From: Ancylobacter sp. WKF20
Lineage (GTDB): Bacteria; Pseudomonadota; Alphaproteobacteria; Rhizobiales; Xanthobacteraceae
Length of the DNA: 64,000 nt
Assembly: GCF_029760895.1 (NCBI RefSeq)
Contig: NZ_CP121679.1
Location: 1,364,001-1,428,000 of the forward strand
Direction of reading: 5' to 3'
Positions 4,780 through 29,915 of the stretch are shown one piece after another (the stretch's first letter is position 1; every line of letters begins with the position of its first letter). A model generated the notes under the pieces. The model made no database searches and was not told the origin of the DNA. It saw nothing but the letters and a program-made list of their open reading frames with translations. The position numbers and the translations under genes were made by a program.

Positions 4780-4794
4780 GAACACACAAAGAAC
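4780..4794 (+). promoter_or_regulatory. LexA operator (SOS box) 1 of lexA
   Basis: GAAC-ACACAAA-GAAC, a perfect match (on the complementary strand GTTC-N7-GTTC) to the alphaproteobacterial LexA operator. It lies 69-83 bases upstream of the lexA start, as expected for autoregulation. Confidence 0.85.
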
Positions 4795-4862: not shown

Positions 4863-5564
4863 ATGCTCACCCGCAAACAGCACGAGCTGCTGCTCTTCAT
4901 CGACGAACGCCTGAAACGGGACGGCGTGCCCCCCTCTTTCGAGGAAATGAAGGAGGCGCTCGATCTGCGGTCGAAATCGGGCATTCACCGCCTGATCACG
5001 GCGCTGGAAGAGCGCGGCTTCATCCGCCGCCTGCCCAACCGGGCCCGCGCGCTCGAAGTGCTCCGCCTGCCGGAGGACGCGCAGGCCCGCCCCGCGCGTG
5101 GCGCCTTCGCCCCCAATGTGATCGAAGGCAGCCTCGGCCGGGTGAAGCTGCCCTCCGCCGCGGTGGAGGAGGATTCCCGCCGCCCGGTAGCGATCCCCAT
5201 CGTCGGCCGCATCGCCGCCGGCTCACCCATCTCCGCCATCCAGTCGCCCGACAGCACGATCAACATGCCGCCGGAAATGCTTTCGGGCGGCGAGCATTTC
5301 GCCCTTGAGGTGCGTGGTGATTCGATGATCGAGGCCGGCATCTTCGATGGCGACCTCGCGCTGATCCGCAAATCCGATACCGCCAGCACCGGCGACATCG
5401 TGGTGGCGCTGATCGACGACGAGGACGCTACGCTGAAGCGCCTGCGCCGCAAGGGCGCGTCCATCGCGCTGGAAGCCGCCAACCCGGCCTATGAGACCCG
5501 CATTTTCGGACCCGACCGGGTGCAGATTCAGGGCCGGCTCGTCGCGCTGTTCCGGCGCTACTGA
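4863..5564 (+). CDS. lexA: SOS response repressor LexA
   Basis: 233-residue LexA: a self-cleaving repressor of DNA-damage genes. The N-terminal winged helix (1-65) begins [12 protein letters not shown] with [18 protein letters not shown] as recognition region. The cleavage site Ala119-Gly120 is in [11 protein letters not shown]; the S24 peptidase dyad is Ser154 ([10 protein letters not shown]) and Lys192 ([10 protein letters not shown]). The alphaproteobacterial form has a longer linker than E. coli LexA. The ATG at 4863 starts exactly at the conserved MLTRKQ. Two LexA operators precede it. Its stop overlaps the end of comEC by 7 bases (convergent). Confidence 0.97.
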
Positions 5565-25616: not shown

Positions 25617-28600
25617 TCACGCGGCCTCGACGTCGACCACGCCGGGCACCGCCTTCAGCGCGCCGGCGATCTGCGGCGAGAGGTTGAAACGGCCGGGCAG
25701 CTTCACCTCGACCTCCGTGGCGCCCCGCTCGCCCAGCAGCAGCACCAGCGCCACCTCGCCATCGCCCCGCCCATTGCCCGCCAGCGTGTTGAGGCGGGAA
25801 GCGACGCTCTCCAGCGGCTCGGGCGAGCGCAGGAAGATTCGCATGCTCTTCTGCATCCGCGCCGTTGCCGCGTCGAGCGGCTCGGCATTCTGGATGCGCG
25901 CACGGACATCCTCGCCCTGAAGCTCGGCAGACACCTGCAACAGCAGGGCCCTGCCCGGTTCCAGCAATTCGCGGAACTGGTTCAGCGCCTCGGAGAACAG
26001 CACCGCCTCGAACTGGCCGGAGGGGTCGGAGAGGCCGACAATGCCCATCTTGCTGCCGCTCTTGGTGCGGCGCTCCTGCCGACTCACCACGGTGGCGGCG
26101 AGACGCCCGAAGCCGTGGCCGGCCCGGACGGAACGCTGGAAATCGAGCCAGCGCTGCACACGTAGCTTCCCCAGCGCCTTGGCGTAATCGTCCAGCGGAT
26201 GGCCGGTGAGGAAGAAGCCGATGGCCTGATATTCGTTCTGCAGCCGCTCCGCCGGCAGCCAGGGCGCGACATTGGGAATCGGCAGCTCGGTCGCCTGCGC
26301 CGGCCCGCCGAACATGTTCCCCTGGCCGGACGCCACTTCCGCGCCGACCGAGGCGGCATGGGCCAGCACGGGGTCGATCGCTGCGGCGACGCGGGCGCGA
26401 TTCTTTTCCAGCGCGTCGAAAGCCCCTGCATTCACAAGGCTTTCCATGGTGCGCTTGTTCAGCGCCTTGGCGTTGATGCGGGCGGCGAAGTCCGACAAGC
26501 TGGTGAACGGCCGGTCACCGCGCGCCTCGACGATGGCGTCGACGGCATGGACGCCCACGCCCTTGATGGCGGCGAGCGCGTAGAGAATCTTCCCGTCCTT
26601 CACCGCGAATTCGCGGCCGGAATGGTTCACCGAGGGCGGCACCACCTCGATACCGAGGCGCTGCGCCTCCTGGCGGAATTCGGCCAGCTTGTCAGTGTTG
26701 CCCATATCGAGCGTCATCGAGGCGGCGAGGAATTCGGTGGCGTAGTTCGCCTTCATATAGGCGGTCTGGTAGGCGACCAGCGCATACGCCGCCGCGTGGC
26801 TCTTGTTGAAGCCGTAGTCAGCGAATTTCGCCAGCAGATCAAAGATTTCCGAGGCCTTGCCCTTCGGCACGCCGCGCTCCACCGCGCCGTCGACGAAGCG
26901 CTCGCGCTGCTTGTCCATCTCCGCGCGGATCTTCTTACCCATGGCGCGGCGCAGCAGATCGGCTTCGCCGAGCGAGTAGCCCGACAGCGTCTGGGCGATC
27001 TGCATCACCTGTTCCTGGTAGATGATGACGCCGTAGGTCTCCTTCAGGCTCGCCTCCAGCGCGGGATGGGCATAGGCAGCCTGCTCCTGGCCGTTCTTGA
27101 CCGCGCAATAGACCGGGATGTTGGCCATGGGACCGGGACGGTACAGGGCCACCAGCGCGATGATGTCCTCCAGCCGATCCGGCTTCATGTCGACCAGCGC
27201 GCGCCGCATGCCCGCGCTTTCCACCTGGAACACGCCCACGGTCTCGCCGCGCGTCAGCATGGCGTAACTCTTTGGGTCGTCGAGCGGAATGGTCGACAGA
27301 TCGAGCTGGATGCCACGCTGGGCGACGAGGCGGACGGCCGTCTGCAGCACCGTCAGCGTCTTCAGGCCGAGGAAGTCGAACTTCACCAGCCCGGCCTGCT
27401 CCACCCATTTCATGTTGTACTGGGTGACCGGCATGTCCGAGCGCGGATCTCGGTATAATGGCACCAGCTGCGCCAGCGGGCGGTCGCCAATGACGATGCC
27501 GGCGGCGTGGGTCGAGGCGTGGCGGTTGAGCCCTTCGAGGCGCGTGGCGATATCGAAGGCGCGCTTCACCACCGGATTGGCGTCGGCCTCCGCCTGAAGC
27601 CGCGCCTCGTCCGTGATCGCCTGCTTCAGCGTCACCGGATTGGCCGGATTCTGAGGCACCAGCTTGCAGAGCTTGTCGACCTGGCCATAGGGCATTTCCA
27701 GCACCCGGCCGACGTCGCGAAGCACACCGCGGGCCTGCAGCGTACCGAAGGTGATGATCTGCGCGACCTGGTCGCGGCCATAGCGCTGCTGGACGTATCT
27801 TATTACTTCGTCTCGTCTTTCCTGACAGAAGTCGATGTCGAAGTCAGGCATCGACACGCGCTCGGGGTTCAGGAAGCGCTCGAAGAGCAGGCCGAAGCGG
27901 AGGGGGTCGAGGTCGGTGATGGTGAGCGAATAGGCGACCAGCGAGCCGGCGCCCGAACCACGGCCCGGGCCGACCGGAATGCCTTGCGCCTTCGCCCATT
28001 TGATGAAGTCCGACACGATCAGGAAGTAGCCGGGAAACTTCATCTTTTCGATGATGGACAGCTCGAAGGCGAGGCGGTCCTCATAGTCCTTCACCGTCAG
28101 ACCCGGCGCCGGCCCGTGGACCGCGAGACGCTGGCGCAGCCCCTCCTCGGCCTGCAGGCGCAGCTCTTCCGCCTCGTCGCGGTCCATGGTGAAGCGCGGC
28201 AGGATGGGCTTCACGGTGCGCGGGCGATAGGCGCAGCGCTGGGCGATTTCCACCGTGTTGGCAAGGGCTTCCGGCAGATCAGCGAAGAGCGTCATCATCT
28301 CCGCGCGGGTGCGGAAACGGTGTTCGGGGGTGAGTTGGCGCCGGTCGCCCTCGGCGACGAGGCGGCCTTCGGCGATGCAGATCAGCGCGTCATGCGCCTC
28401 GTAATCGTCCTGAGCGGCGAAGAACGGCTCGTTGGTGGCGACCAGCGGGAGGTCAAGGCGGTAGGCGAGATCAATCAGCCCGGTCTCGACGCGGCGTTCC
28501 TCGGCGATGCCGTGGCGCTGCAGTTCGACATAGAGACGGTCACCAAATACCTCCCGCAAGGCGACCAGACGTTGCTCGGCAAGGTCCGCGCTGCCGGCCG

Positions 28601-29060
28601 CGAGGCTGCGGTCGATCGGTCCAGTGGGACCGCCAGTCAGTGCAATCAGGCCAGTGTGTGTGGTGTCCAGCCAGTCGAGATTGATGTGCGGCGCGCCGTC
28701 CGAGGCGGTCTCCAGATAGGAGCGCGACACCAGCTCCATCAGGTTGCTCCACCCCGCCTCCGAGGCGGCGAGCAGGACGATGCGCGGGCGCTCCGTTGCC
28801 AGCGGGCCGCGCGGGGCCGGGCCGGGCATGTCGATGGCGAGCGTGCAGCCAACGATGGGCTGGATGCCGGAGCCGGCCATCTTCTCGGAGAATTCCAGCG
28901 CGCCGAACAGATTGCCCGTGTCGGTCAGCGCGATGGCGGGCTGGCGGTCCTTCTTGGCGAGGTCCGCGAGCTTGGCGACGCTCAGCGCGCCTTCCAGCAG
29001 CGAGAAGGAGGAGTGCACATGCAGATGCACGAATCCGACATCGGTCGTGGCTTCGCTCAT
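25617..29060 (-). CDS. dnaE: DNA polymerase III subunit alpha (DnaE1)
   Basis: 1147-residue replicative polymerase. Order: PHP domain with HLHVHSSFSLLEGA (His12, His14, His16), polymerase palm with the catalytic PDFDID at 405-410 and GPGRGSGAGSLVAYSL at 364-379, helix-hairpin-helix region (IKGVGVHAVDAIV), then an OB fold (VSRQERRTKSGSKMGIVGL) and C-terminal domain. The ATG at 29060 follows GGAGACCCAC. The length and intact PHP residues argue for DnaE1, not the error-prone DnaE2. The gene upstream is a LexA-box-controlled small peptide gene on the same strand, 129 bases away. Confidence 0.96.
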   Translation of the reverse strand: MSEATTDVGFVHLHVHSSFSLLEGALSVAKLADLAKKDRQPAIALTDTGNLFGALEFSEKMAGSGIQPIVGCTLAIDMPGPAPRGPLATERPRIVLLAASEAGWSNLMELVSRSYLETASDGAPHINLDWLDTTHTGLIALTGGPTGPIDRSLAAGSADLAEQRLVALREVFGDRLYVELQRHGIAEERRVETGLIDLAYRLDLPLVATNEPFFAAQDDYEAHDALICIAEGRLVAEGDRRQLTPEHRFRTRAEMMTLFADLPEALANTVEIAQRCAYRPRTVKPILPRFTMDRDEAEELRLQAEEGLRQRLAVHGPAPGLTVKDYEDRLAFELSIIEKMKFPGYFLIVSDFIKWAKAQGIPVGPGRGSGAGSLVAYSLTITDLDPLRFGLLFERFLNPERVSMPDFDIDFCQERRDEVIRYVQQRYGRDQVAQIITFGTLQARGVLRDVGRVLEMPYGQVDKLCKLVPQNPANPVTLKQAITDEARLQAEADANPVVKRAFDIATRLEGLNRHASTHAAGIVIGDRPLAQLVPLYRDPRSDMPVTQYNMKWVEQAGLVKFDFLGLKTLTVLQTAVRLVAQRGIQLDLSTIPLDDPKSYAMLTRGETVGVFQVESAGMRRALVDMKPDRLEDIIALVALYRPGPMANIPVYCAVKNGQEQAAYAHPALEASLKETYGVIIYQEQVMQIAQTLSGYSLGEADLLRRAMGKKIRAEMDKQRERFVDGAVERGVPKGKASEIFDLLAKFADYGFNKSHAAAYALVAYQTAYMKANYATEFLAASMTLDMGNTDKLAEFRQEAQRLGIEVVPPSVNHSGREFAVKDGKILYALAAIKGVGVHAVDAIVEARGDRPFTSLSDFAARINAKALNKRTMESLVNAGAFDALEKNRARVAAAIDPVLAHAASVGAEVASGQGNMFGGPAQATELPIPNVAPWLPAERLQNEYQAIGFFLTGHPLDDYAKALGKLRVQRWLDFQRSVRAGHGFGRLAATVVSRQERRTKSGSKMGIVGLSDPSGQFEAVLFSEALNQFRELLEPGRALLLQVSAELQGEDVRARIQNAEPLDAATARMQKSMRIFLRSPEPLESVASRLNTLAGNGRGDGEVALVLLLGERGATEVEVKLPGRFNLSPQIAGALKAVPGVVDVEAA

Positions 29061-29152
29061 GTGGGTCTCCTGCGATTCGCGGTAGCTCCCTTTATGGTGG
29101 GCGCAGCCCCCGGCCGCGTCCACCCTGCGGGGGCGATGCTCCCCGCTGTCCT

Positions 29153-29171
29153 CAGGCCCGAACGGGGCCTG
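29153..29171 (-). terminator. Hairpin between the small SOS ORF and dnaE
   Basis: CAGGCCC-GAACG-GGGCCTG: seven perfect pairs, loop of five, beginning 18 bases after the stop of the 32-codon gene. There is no T-tract, so read-through to dnaE is possible. Confidence 0.35.
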
Positions 29172-29189
29172 CATCGGGCCCGGATGGGC

Positions 29190-29288
29190 TCAGACGCCGG
29201 TGAACACCCCGGCCCAGACGCCGACCATGGCGACGAACAGACCAACCGAGGCGAGAGCGGCGACTTCCTGGAGAAGGATGCGGATCAT
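29190..29288 (-). CDS. Putative SOS-induced 32-residue single-span membrane peptide
   Basis: A 32-codon gene with a textbook ribosome site: AGGAGG at 29299-29294 then five bases and ATG at 29288-29286, stop TGA at 29192-29190. The peptide starts MIRILLQEV and continues as an almost uncharged hydrophobic stretch (about residues 9-31) rich in Val, Ala, Gly with one Trp, enough for one membrane helix. Two perfect LexA operators lie just upstream (29303-29317 and 29349-29363). I do not recognise a family. In design it resembles the 29-residue Caulobacter SidA, an SOS-induced inner-membrane division inhibitor acting on FtsW; this likeness is inference, not sequence identity. Confidence 0.7.
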   Translation of the reverse strand: MIRILLQEVAALASVGLFVAMVGVWAGVFTGV

Positions 29289-29302
29289 GTCGACCTCCTA
29301 GG

Positions 29303-29317
29303 GAACATAATGAGAAC
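29303..29317 (-). promoter_or_regulatory. LexA operator (SOS box), proximal, perfect consensus
   Basis: On the gene strand GTTC-TCATTAT-GTTC, exact match to the alphaproteobacterial GTTC-N7-GTTC operator. It ends only 14 bases before the ATG of the 32-codon gene and nearly touches its ribosome site, so LexA bound here would cover the start region of the promoter. Confidence 0.85.
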
Positions 29318-29348
29318 ATGCACCCCATAATCCCCAGAATCAACCTAT

Positions 29349-29363
29349 GTTCTTCTTTCGTTC
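29349..29363 (-). promoter_or_regulatory. LexA operator (SOS box), distal, perfect consensus
   Basis: On the gene strand GAAC-GAAAGAA-GAAC (plus strand GTTC-TTCTTTC-GTTC), a second exact match, 31 bases upstream of the proximal one. The two boxes have opposite orientation, the same arrangement as the pair in the lexA promoter of this window. Confidence 0.85.
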
Positions 29364-29373
29364 CGACGCCTGG

Positions 29374-29388
29374 TTAACAGCACGGTAA
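29374..29388. promoter_or_regulatory. Possible CtrA-like site
   Basis: TTAA-CAGCACG-GTAA on the plus strand, one mismatch from the CtrA consensus TTAA-N7-TTAA, 10 bases beyond the distal LexA box. One near-match can arise by chance. Confidence 0.25.
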
Positions 29389-29462
29389 CGGACGAGATCC
29401 CGCACGGGAGAATCACCGCCCGCGCCGGGACTTAGCGTCATTGGGAGAAACAGATGGGCCGC

Positions 29463-29915
29463 TCAGTCGAGGCGCGGCGGCCAGGCCGTGTCGAGCCGCA
29501 CGCCGAGCAAACCGCCCTCGCCGACGATGATCGCCTCGCAGCGGGCCGGGCGCCCGTCCATCACCGCGTTGAACGCGTCCATCTCGCCCGGCTTGATATG
29601 GCCGACGCGGGCGCCGTCGACGAGAACCCAGATGCCGCGCAGCTCACCATTGCGGGCGACATCGGGGACCAGCTCGGCGGTGCAGTCATGGCCTTCGCGC
29701 CCCGGCCGCCCGGCGATGCGGCCGAGCACCGGCTGGTGCTCGTCGCTGCCGGCGACCGCGTGGTCATAGCCGCCATCGCCCGCCAGCATCGCGGCCGCCT
29801 GCGGGGCGACCACGCGCTCGCCCGTCCAGCGCAGCAGGATGATGAGCGCGAGCGCGGCCGCGACGCCGAGGGCGAGCAGCGACATGTGGTCGAGATCGGC
29901 GATCAGATTCGGCAT
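29463..29915 (-). CDS. Membrane-anchored protein with HIRAN-like C-terminal region
   Basis: 150 residues, not firmly recognised. One N-terminal membrane helix (about 10-30, SLLALGVAAALALIILL) is followed by a soluble domain. Its pattern (GSDEHQPVLGRIAG, then AELVPD..NGELRGIWVLVDGARVGHI, then an alpha helix and RCEAIIVGEG) recalls HIRAN-type domains, which have a similar repeat of L-E-N-D-A-V-V-G-V-G-Y-L positions. The assignment is tentative. ATG at 29915 is used; ATG at 29885 is the alternative. It lies 118 bases after lolD on the same strand. Confidence 0.6.
   Translation of the reverse strand: MPNLIADLDHMSLLALGVAAALALIILLRWTGERVVAPQAAAMLAGDGGYDHAVAGSDEHQPVLGRIAGRPGREGHDCTAELVPDVARNGELRGIWVLVDGARVGHIKPGEMDAFNAVMDGRPARCEAIIVGEGGLLGVRLDTAWPPRLD

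Follow-up and report, generated by a model that had tools for sequence, protein, structure and literature searches.

Introduction

SidA of Caulobacter is described as a 29-residue, SOS-induced inner-membrane division inhibitor which interacts with FtsW, and its lethality is suppressed by mutations in ftsW or ftsI; an inactive FtsW/FtsI/FtsN state is the model of those authors for its action (PMC4211646). Loss of sidA relieves the filamentation of a Caulobacter lexA mutant (PMC12700426), and genome-wide mapping led to a corrected start codon for the Caulobacter gene (PMC4117421). A second Caulobacter protein, DidA, has 71 residues, is SOS-independent and is activated by DriD (PMC4211646). SOS division inhibitors are usually described as unrelated between bacterial groups, and yneA, divS, chiZ and sidA have been called unrelated genes (PMC4211646). 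At the level of titles and abstract openings, no paper on SidA outside Caulobacter was seen among those listed, and an earlier mention is possible. A text search of a study of Bradyrhizobium small ORFs (PMC5082802) gave no hit for four terms. Here we describe a SidA-like locus in Ancylobacter sp. WKF20; "the window" is the whole stretch of 64,000 nucleotides that was analysed.

Results

A short ORF behind two operators and ahead of dnaE

The features of the locus, and the two that belong to lexA, are as follows (window coordinates).
25617..29060, minus strand: dnaE (replicative DNA polymerase III alpha), downstream of the ORF and on its strand; start taken from the homology match
29190..29288, minus strand: putative sidA ortholog, a 32-codon ORF MIRILLQEVAALASVGLFVAMVGVWAGVFTGV plus stop codon; from ORF scan, conservation and profile scores
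29294..29299, minus strand: AGGAGG ribosome-binding site with a 5-base spacer to the ATG; from sequence
29303..29317, minus strand: proximal LexA-type operator GTTCTCATTATGTTC; from pattern match and conservation
29349..29363, plus strand: distal LexA-type operator GTTCTTCTTTCGTTC, head-to-head with the proximal one; from pattern match and conservation
4780..4794, minus strand: operator GTTCTTTGTGTGTTC, about 70 bases before the lexA match; from pattern match
4863..5558, plus strand: lexA; from homology match

The sequence-only reading had proposed a hidden membrane-peptide gene here, and its elements were recovered at the positions it gave: the well-spaced AGGAGG, the 32 codons, the two exact GTTC-N7-GTTC sites at 29303-29317 and 29349-29363, and the hydrophobic helix, which appears as one hydrophobic stretch in the 32-residue peptide. 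On the minus strand the ATG lies at 29288-29286, the codons run down to 29193 and the stop codon occupies 29192-29190. The peptide has the length and the single helix of a SidA, its ORF lies just upstream of dnaE, and two exact predicted LexA sites stand in its promoter. The dnaE match begins at 29060, about 130 bases past the peptide stop if dnaE starts there; an in-frame ATG for dnaE is present further upstream. The peptide matched no Pfam or NCBIfam model. In 28900-29600 no terminator-like or promoter-like consensus was found, including no sigma-70 consensus promoter, and no Rfam family matched, antisense RNAs included. A 150-residue ORF at 29463-29915 (minus strand), between the operators and a lolD-like gene, also lacks a Pfam or NCBIfam match; relatives of it occur at 16 of the 29 same-genus loci.

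Conservation of the reading frame

Whole-genome searching of 61 genomes recovered the peptide from 35. These comprise 29 of 30 genomes of the same genus (the window's own included), 5 of 7 from other genera of the family and 1 of 24 from other families of the order. The sole same-genus genome without it, G020, is 91% complete with 8% contamination. The 29 same-genus loci give a pN/pS of 0.30 and a median omega of 0.22, indicating purifying selection; variable columns at codon positions 1, 2 and 3 number 17, 5 and 25 of 30. The AGGAGG is conserved in the same alignment, conservation drops right after the stop codon, and the spacer between the ORF and dnaE is unconserved. Because the ORF is present in 29 of 30 genomes, is under purifying selection and loses its conservation at the stop codon, we regard it, on comparative grounds, as a genuine unannotated gene. 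A search of relatives for the peptide together with the operator pair had been proposed, with loss of the frame beside retained boxes as the outcome that would speak against a gene; in the 29 same-genus loci both are kept, and the frame is conserved together with the operators.

The operators

By itself the operator pattern is weak evidence and is not decisive. The window contains three GTTC-N7-GTTC matches, as against a mean of 0.95 in shuffled sequence, and 8 of 100 shuffles reach three. Genome-wide there are 89 matches, and the pattern read in reverse still gives 54, which means that many a single match is noise. All 29 same-genus peptide loci carry at least two exact operators, and in 28 of them two stand head to head at a distance of 46 or 47 bases. 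Since the third match in the window precedes lexA, and since GTTCttgttatGTTC is given as a LexA box of two Caulobacter SOS genes (PMC12700426), GTTC-N7-GTTC is very probably the form of operator used by LexA of this organism. Both lexA and ftsW are present, as judged from sequence.

The association of peptide, operator and dnaE extends beyond the genus. A profile of 12 peptides was searched against 397 genomes of the order and matched 89 of them at E 0.01 or better. In a first set of loci, dnaE lies downstream on the same strand in 35 of 40, and all 35 of these have an exact operator; in a second set, from which one duplicate (L061) was omitted, 61 of 67 are linked to dnaE and 56 of the 61 have the operator. 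Both sets were picked by peptide similarity and not by operator, and together they give 96 dnaE-linked relatives, 91 with an exact operator and five with one-mismatch sites. Between the peptide stop and dnaE these loci have anything from 11 to 663 bases. Among 11 loci with no dnaE in the stretch examined, L024, L086 and L092 retain an operator and eight (L031-L034, L084, L097, L098, L103) have no exact one; of these, L098 falls within a long frame, has no start codon close by and probably matched by chance. Three loci of family f44 (L087, L090, L093) encode a 27-residue peptide, and the sole site found there, at -144, has one mismatch.

Relationship to Caulobacter SidA

We searched 14 named Caulobacteraceae genomes for dnaE, the one miss being the genome bin of L111. 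All 13 dnaE loci have a hydrophobic peptide of 29-30 residues just upstream. An exact box is present in 8 of the 13 but absent from 5, which counts against the SidA reading. When the 40-residue ORF of L198 served as query, a database search gave 43 proteins; 18 of them bear the NCBI or UniRef name "cell division inhibitor SidA", with Caulobacter or Caulobacteraceae as the organism. The peptides of L202 and L199 are identical with two SidA-named proteins, P0020 and P0015. The SidA side of the comparisons below consists of Caulobacteraceae sequences other than the SidA of C. crescentus NA1000.

Profile-profile comparison of 12 with 9 sequences gave E 4.9e-5 and a probability of 68. The key control used shuffles that preserve the hydrophobic block. 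Against it, the order profile scored seven Caulobacteraceae SidAs at a mean of 17.7 bits versus -3.7 for shuffled sequences, and none of 300 group shuffles did as well. In the reverse direction, the Caulobacteraceae profile scored 73 peptides of the order at a mean of 6.5 versus -4.0, with none of 200 shuffles as good, although several of the 73 score no higher than their own shuffles. Homology to SidA is strong for the profile and modest for the window peptide alone, which scored 9.9 bits with 3 of 200 shuffles as good. Counted by eye, 9 of 29 aligned residues (about 31%) are identical to SidA.

The window ORF is very probably a diverged SidA ortholog, the counterpart of the Caulobacter division blocker. 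We favor divergence over independent invention because the position before dnaE is the same and because the profiles are related beyond membrane composition. The sequence-only reading had left the two origins side by side, as an "independently arisen or highly diverged" peptide. The first is ruled out by the dnaE neighbour, with SidA-named Caulobacter ORFs in the same place, and by the shared operators and core; the second agrees with the 9 of 29 identical residues. What had been offered as an analogy can thus be put more strongly, very probably as SidA itself in diverged form.

Distribution in the order and the class

We also surveyed regions anchored on dnaE, located without use of the peptide. 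In the order, 90 of 91 genomes gave a DnaE match; partial matches (G068, G097, G123) were left out and 87 regions were cut. After removal of two whose slice was wrong at a contig edge (L339, L346), 85 regions from 47 families remained. An exact box occurs in 44 of the 85, and shuffles of the 87 regions gave a mean of 1.25 and at most 5. A SidA-like peptide above 8 bits lies on the dnaE strand in 41 of 85 regions (26 families) and on the opposite strand in 1 of 85, the 8-bit cut having been chosen after the opposite-strand scores were known. Since the sequences behind the scoring profile come from this order, some of them from the very genomes surveyed, the box count is independent of the profile but the peptide count is not. 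Box and peptide co-occur: 35 regions have both, 6 the peptide only, 9 the box only and 35 neither (Fisher p 1.3e-9). The single opposite-strand hit (L343, family f11; 26.6 bits) seems to be a true copy lying in the reverse orientation; two exact boxes lie elsewhere in its region, and other f11 genomes show unusual box-to-peptide distances.

In the class, 278 of 289 genomes had a DnaE match, and 87 regions were taken from the matches closest to the DnaE of the window; they are mostly one genome per family and lean to its relatives. An exact box is present in 26 of the 87 (shuffles: mean 1.3, largest 5), and in 20 of these 26, the window and two regions of its own order included, a candidate short ORF lies directly downstream. 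In the other six (L261, L265, L267, L271, L279, L292) no peptide was recognised, and the box, which is on the strand of dnaE, precedes the dnaE match by 61-91 bases. We scored 17 class peptides, chosen by eye downstream of boxes; two (L217, L219) come from the order of the window itself, and one of them, L217, had also served for training, as L101. For 11 of the other 15, at most 2 of 300 shuffles were as good; for L226, L289, L277 and L270 the numbers were 6, 9, 27 and 117. Counting against a general distribution, an exact box is missing from 41 of the 85 regions of the order and from 61 of the 87 of the class, so the gene is not universal, but these surveys indicate that a sidA-like gene beside dnaE is widespread in alphaproteobacteria.

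When ten sequences of the order were used as query, 1940 proteins matched at E 10 or better; among the best 120 the name SidA is absent, and the two listed with an organism (Phreatobacter, Bradyrhizobium) are named "hypothetical protein". A third search gave nine proteins, of which two, from Cohaesibacter, are likewise named "hypothetical protein".

Copies in prophages and viral contigs

Six same-genus genomes contain second copies (L031-L034, L084, L103). One of them, L103 (G000:C1:1174147), is in the window's own genome and is a weak hit (E 7.7e-4). No exact operator was found within 300 bases of these six copies; L034 and L084 have a one-mismatch site. L103 is surrounded by repressor, dNMP phosphatase, endonuclease and integrase families, L032 by a weak helicase-loader match and phage families of unknown function, and L034 by integrase, DnaA-like and beta-clamp proteins, with a Phage_CP76 match just under the cut-off. 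Phage genes were seen directly for these three, and the flanks of L031, L033 and L084 have DNA in common with those of L103 or L032. SidA-like copies without exact operators thus appear to reside in prophages.

Eighty viral contigs were reached via a neighbouring phage protein. Ranked by the order profile, the seven best viral ORFs are each on the same strand as this protein, and they score from 48.8 down to 11.9 bits as against 10.0 for the best reversed-sequence control. The ORF of contig L432 is identical to the L032 copy; those of L425, L431, L424, L454 and L461 look SidA-like and that of L436 looks spurious. When a profile was made from the six prophage copies instead, L432, L424 and L431 alone rose clearly above the noise among the 80 contigs. 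A tblastn search of named phages with one prophage peptide gave no match.

Discussion

Alternative readings of the locus

The operators could serve dnaE, the short ORF being a leader (upstream ORF) that tunes dnaE and has no role in trans. dnaE is on the same strand with no terminator-like site in between, the six class regions place a box before dnaE without a recognised peptide, and sORF25 of Sinorhizobium meliloti, detected by Ribo-seq, has been placed in the 5'-UTR of dnaE1, upstream-ORF roles having been suggested for such ORFs (PMC10117765). However, selection acts on the amino acids of the peptide while the spacer is unconserved and of very variable length, the peptide is related to SidA, which is trans-acting in Caulobacter, copies occur away from dnaE (L031-L034, L084, L103, L097), and no Rfam match was obtained around the ORF. 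We consider a pure leader unlikely. An attenuator was rejected on the unconserved spacer and the absence of an Rfam match in 28900-29600. The six boxed regions and sORF25 leave room for possible SOS control of dnaE or a leader role to some extent; sidA and dnaE could form one SOS operon, in which case the roles for the peptide and for dnaE would both be true.

Less probable still is that the peptide, though SOS-made and membrane-bound, does something other than inhibit the divisome, for example depolarise the membrane. Peptides of the TisB or DinQ type are controlled by antisense RNA and depolarise the membrane. E. coli has in DinQ a toxic, SOS-regulated peptide with a single helix (PMC3567139), and the single short helix found here is compatible with that type, but sequence and position tie the window peptide to SidA and no Rfam family, such as an antisense RNA, was found around the ORF. 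That a chance ORF sits beside operators for nothing or for something else has a negligible probability: ORFs of this size are common and many single matches to the operator pattern are noise, but the frame, the codon-position signature and the operators are all conserved among relatives, and presence in 29 of 30 genomes excludes chance.

Proposed function

We propose that the ORF is the sidA of this bacterium, encoding a LexA-repressed, SOS-made peptide that would hold the septal complex inactive until repair; we think this likely. Repression by LexA is predicted because the operators are conserved and lexA carries the same operator. LexA bound at the two operators would keep sidA off, and its removal upon DNA damage would allow the peptide to be made in the SOS response. 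The peptide would then enter the inner membrane as a single helix and, as in Caulobacter, hold the FtsW/FtsI/FtsN complex of septal wall synthesis inactive, so that division would be delayed until repair. The place before dnaE is probably ancestral, with some SOS read-through into dnaE possible. Of the SOS checkpoint peptide first envisaged, the hidden SidA-like membrane peptide under predicted LexA control has stood; arrest of division through FtsW/FtsN we infer from orthology.

A wider reading is more tentative, and we would put it at somewhat under an even chance: SidA might be an ancestral alphaproteobacterial SOS checkpoint, kept before dnaE across orders and largely unannotated, from which temperate phages of this group took copies lacking the LexA operator, with which a prophage could stop host division under control of its own. 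If SidA is an old gene beside dnaE, position could serve to locate the division checkpoint of many alphaproteobacteria, and the gene could then be annotated and deleted. Natural variation in the alignment can be used to ask which residues of a peptide of about 30 residues inactivate the septal wall synthase, and the prophage copies suggest a route for phage control of host division. The breadth of the family and the phage copies should be of interest to specialists.

Comparison with known systems

Three described systems stand closest. sORF25 of S. meliloti is likewise a short ORF just upstream of dnaE (dnaE1; PMC10117765); it may be the same gene as the window family, and we offer this as a lead. 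DidA of Caulobacter resembles the window peptide as a small DNA-damage-induced membrane protein directed at the same division complex, but it has 71 residues and is SOS-independent, whereas the window peptide has 32 and lies under LexA-type operators, which sets it apart from DidA. SidA of Caulobacter shares its length class, single hydrophobic helix, LexA-type operators, position at dnaE and related core. The two differ in length (29 versus 32 residues), are about 31% identical, and the genus of the window has two operators 46 bases apart, unlike Caulobacter sidA.
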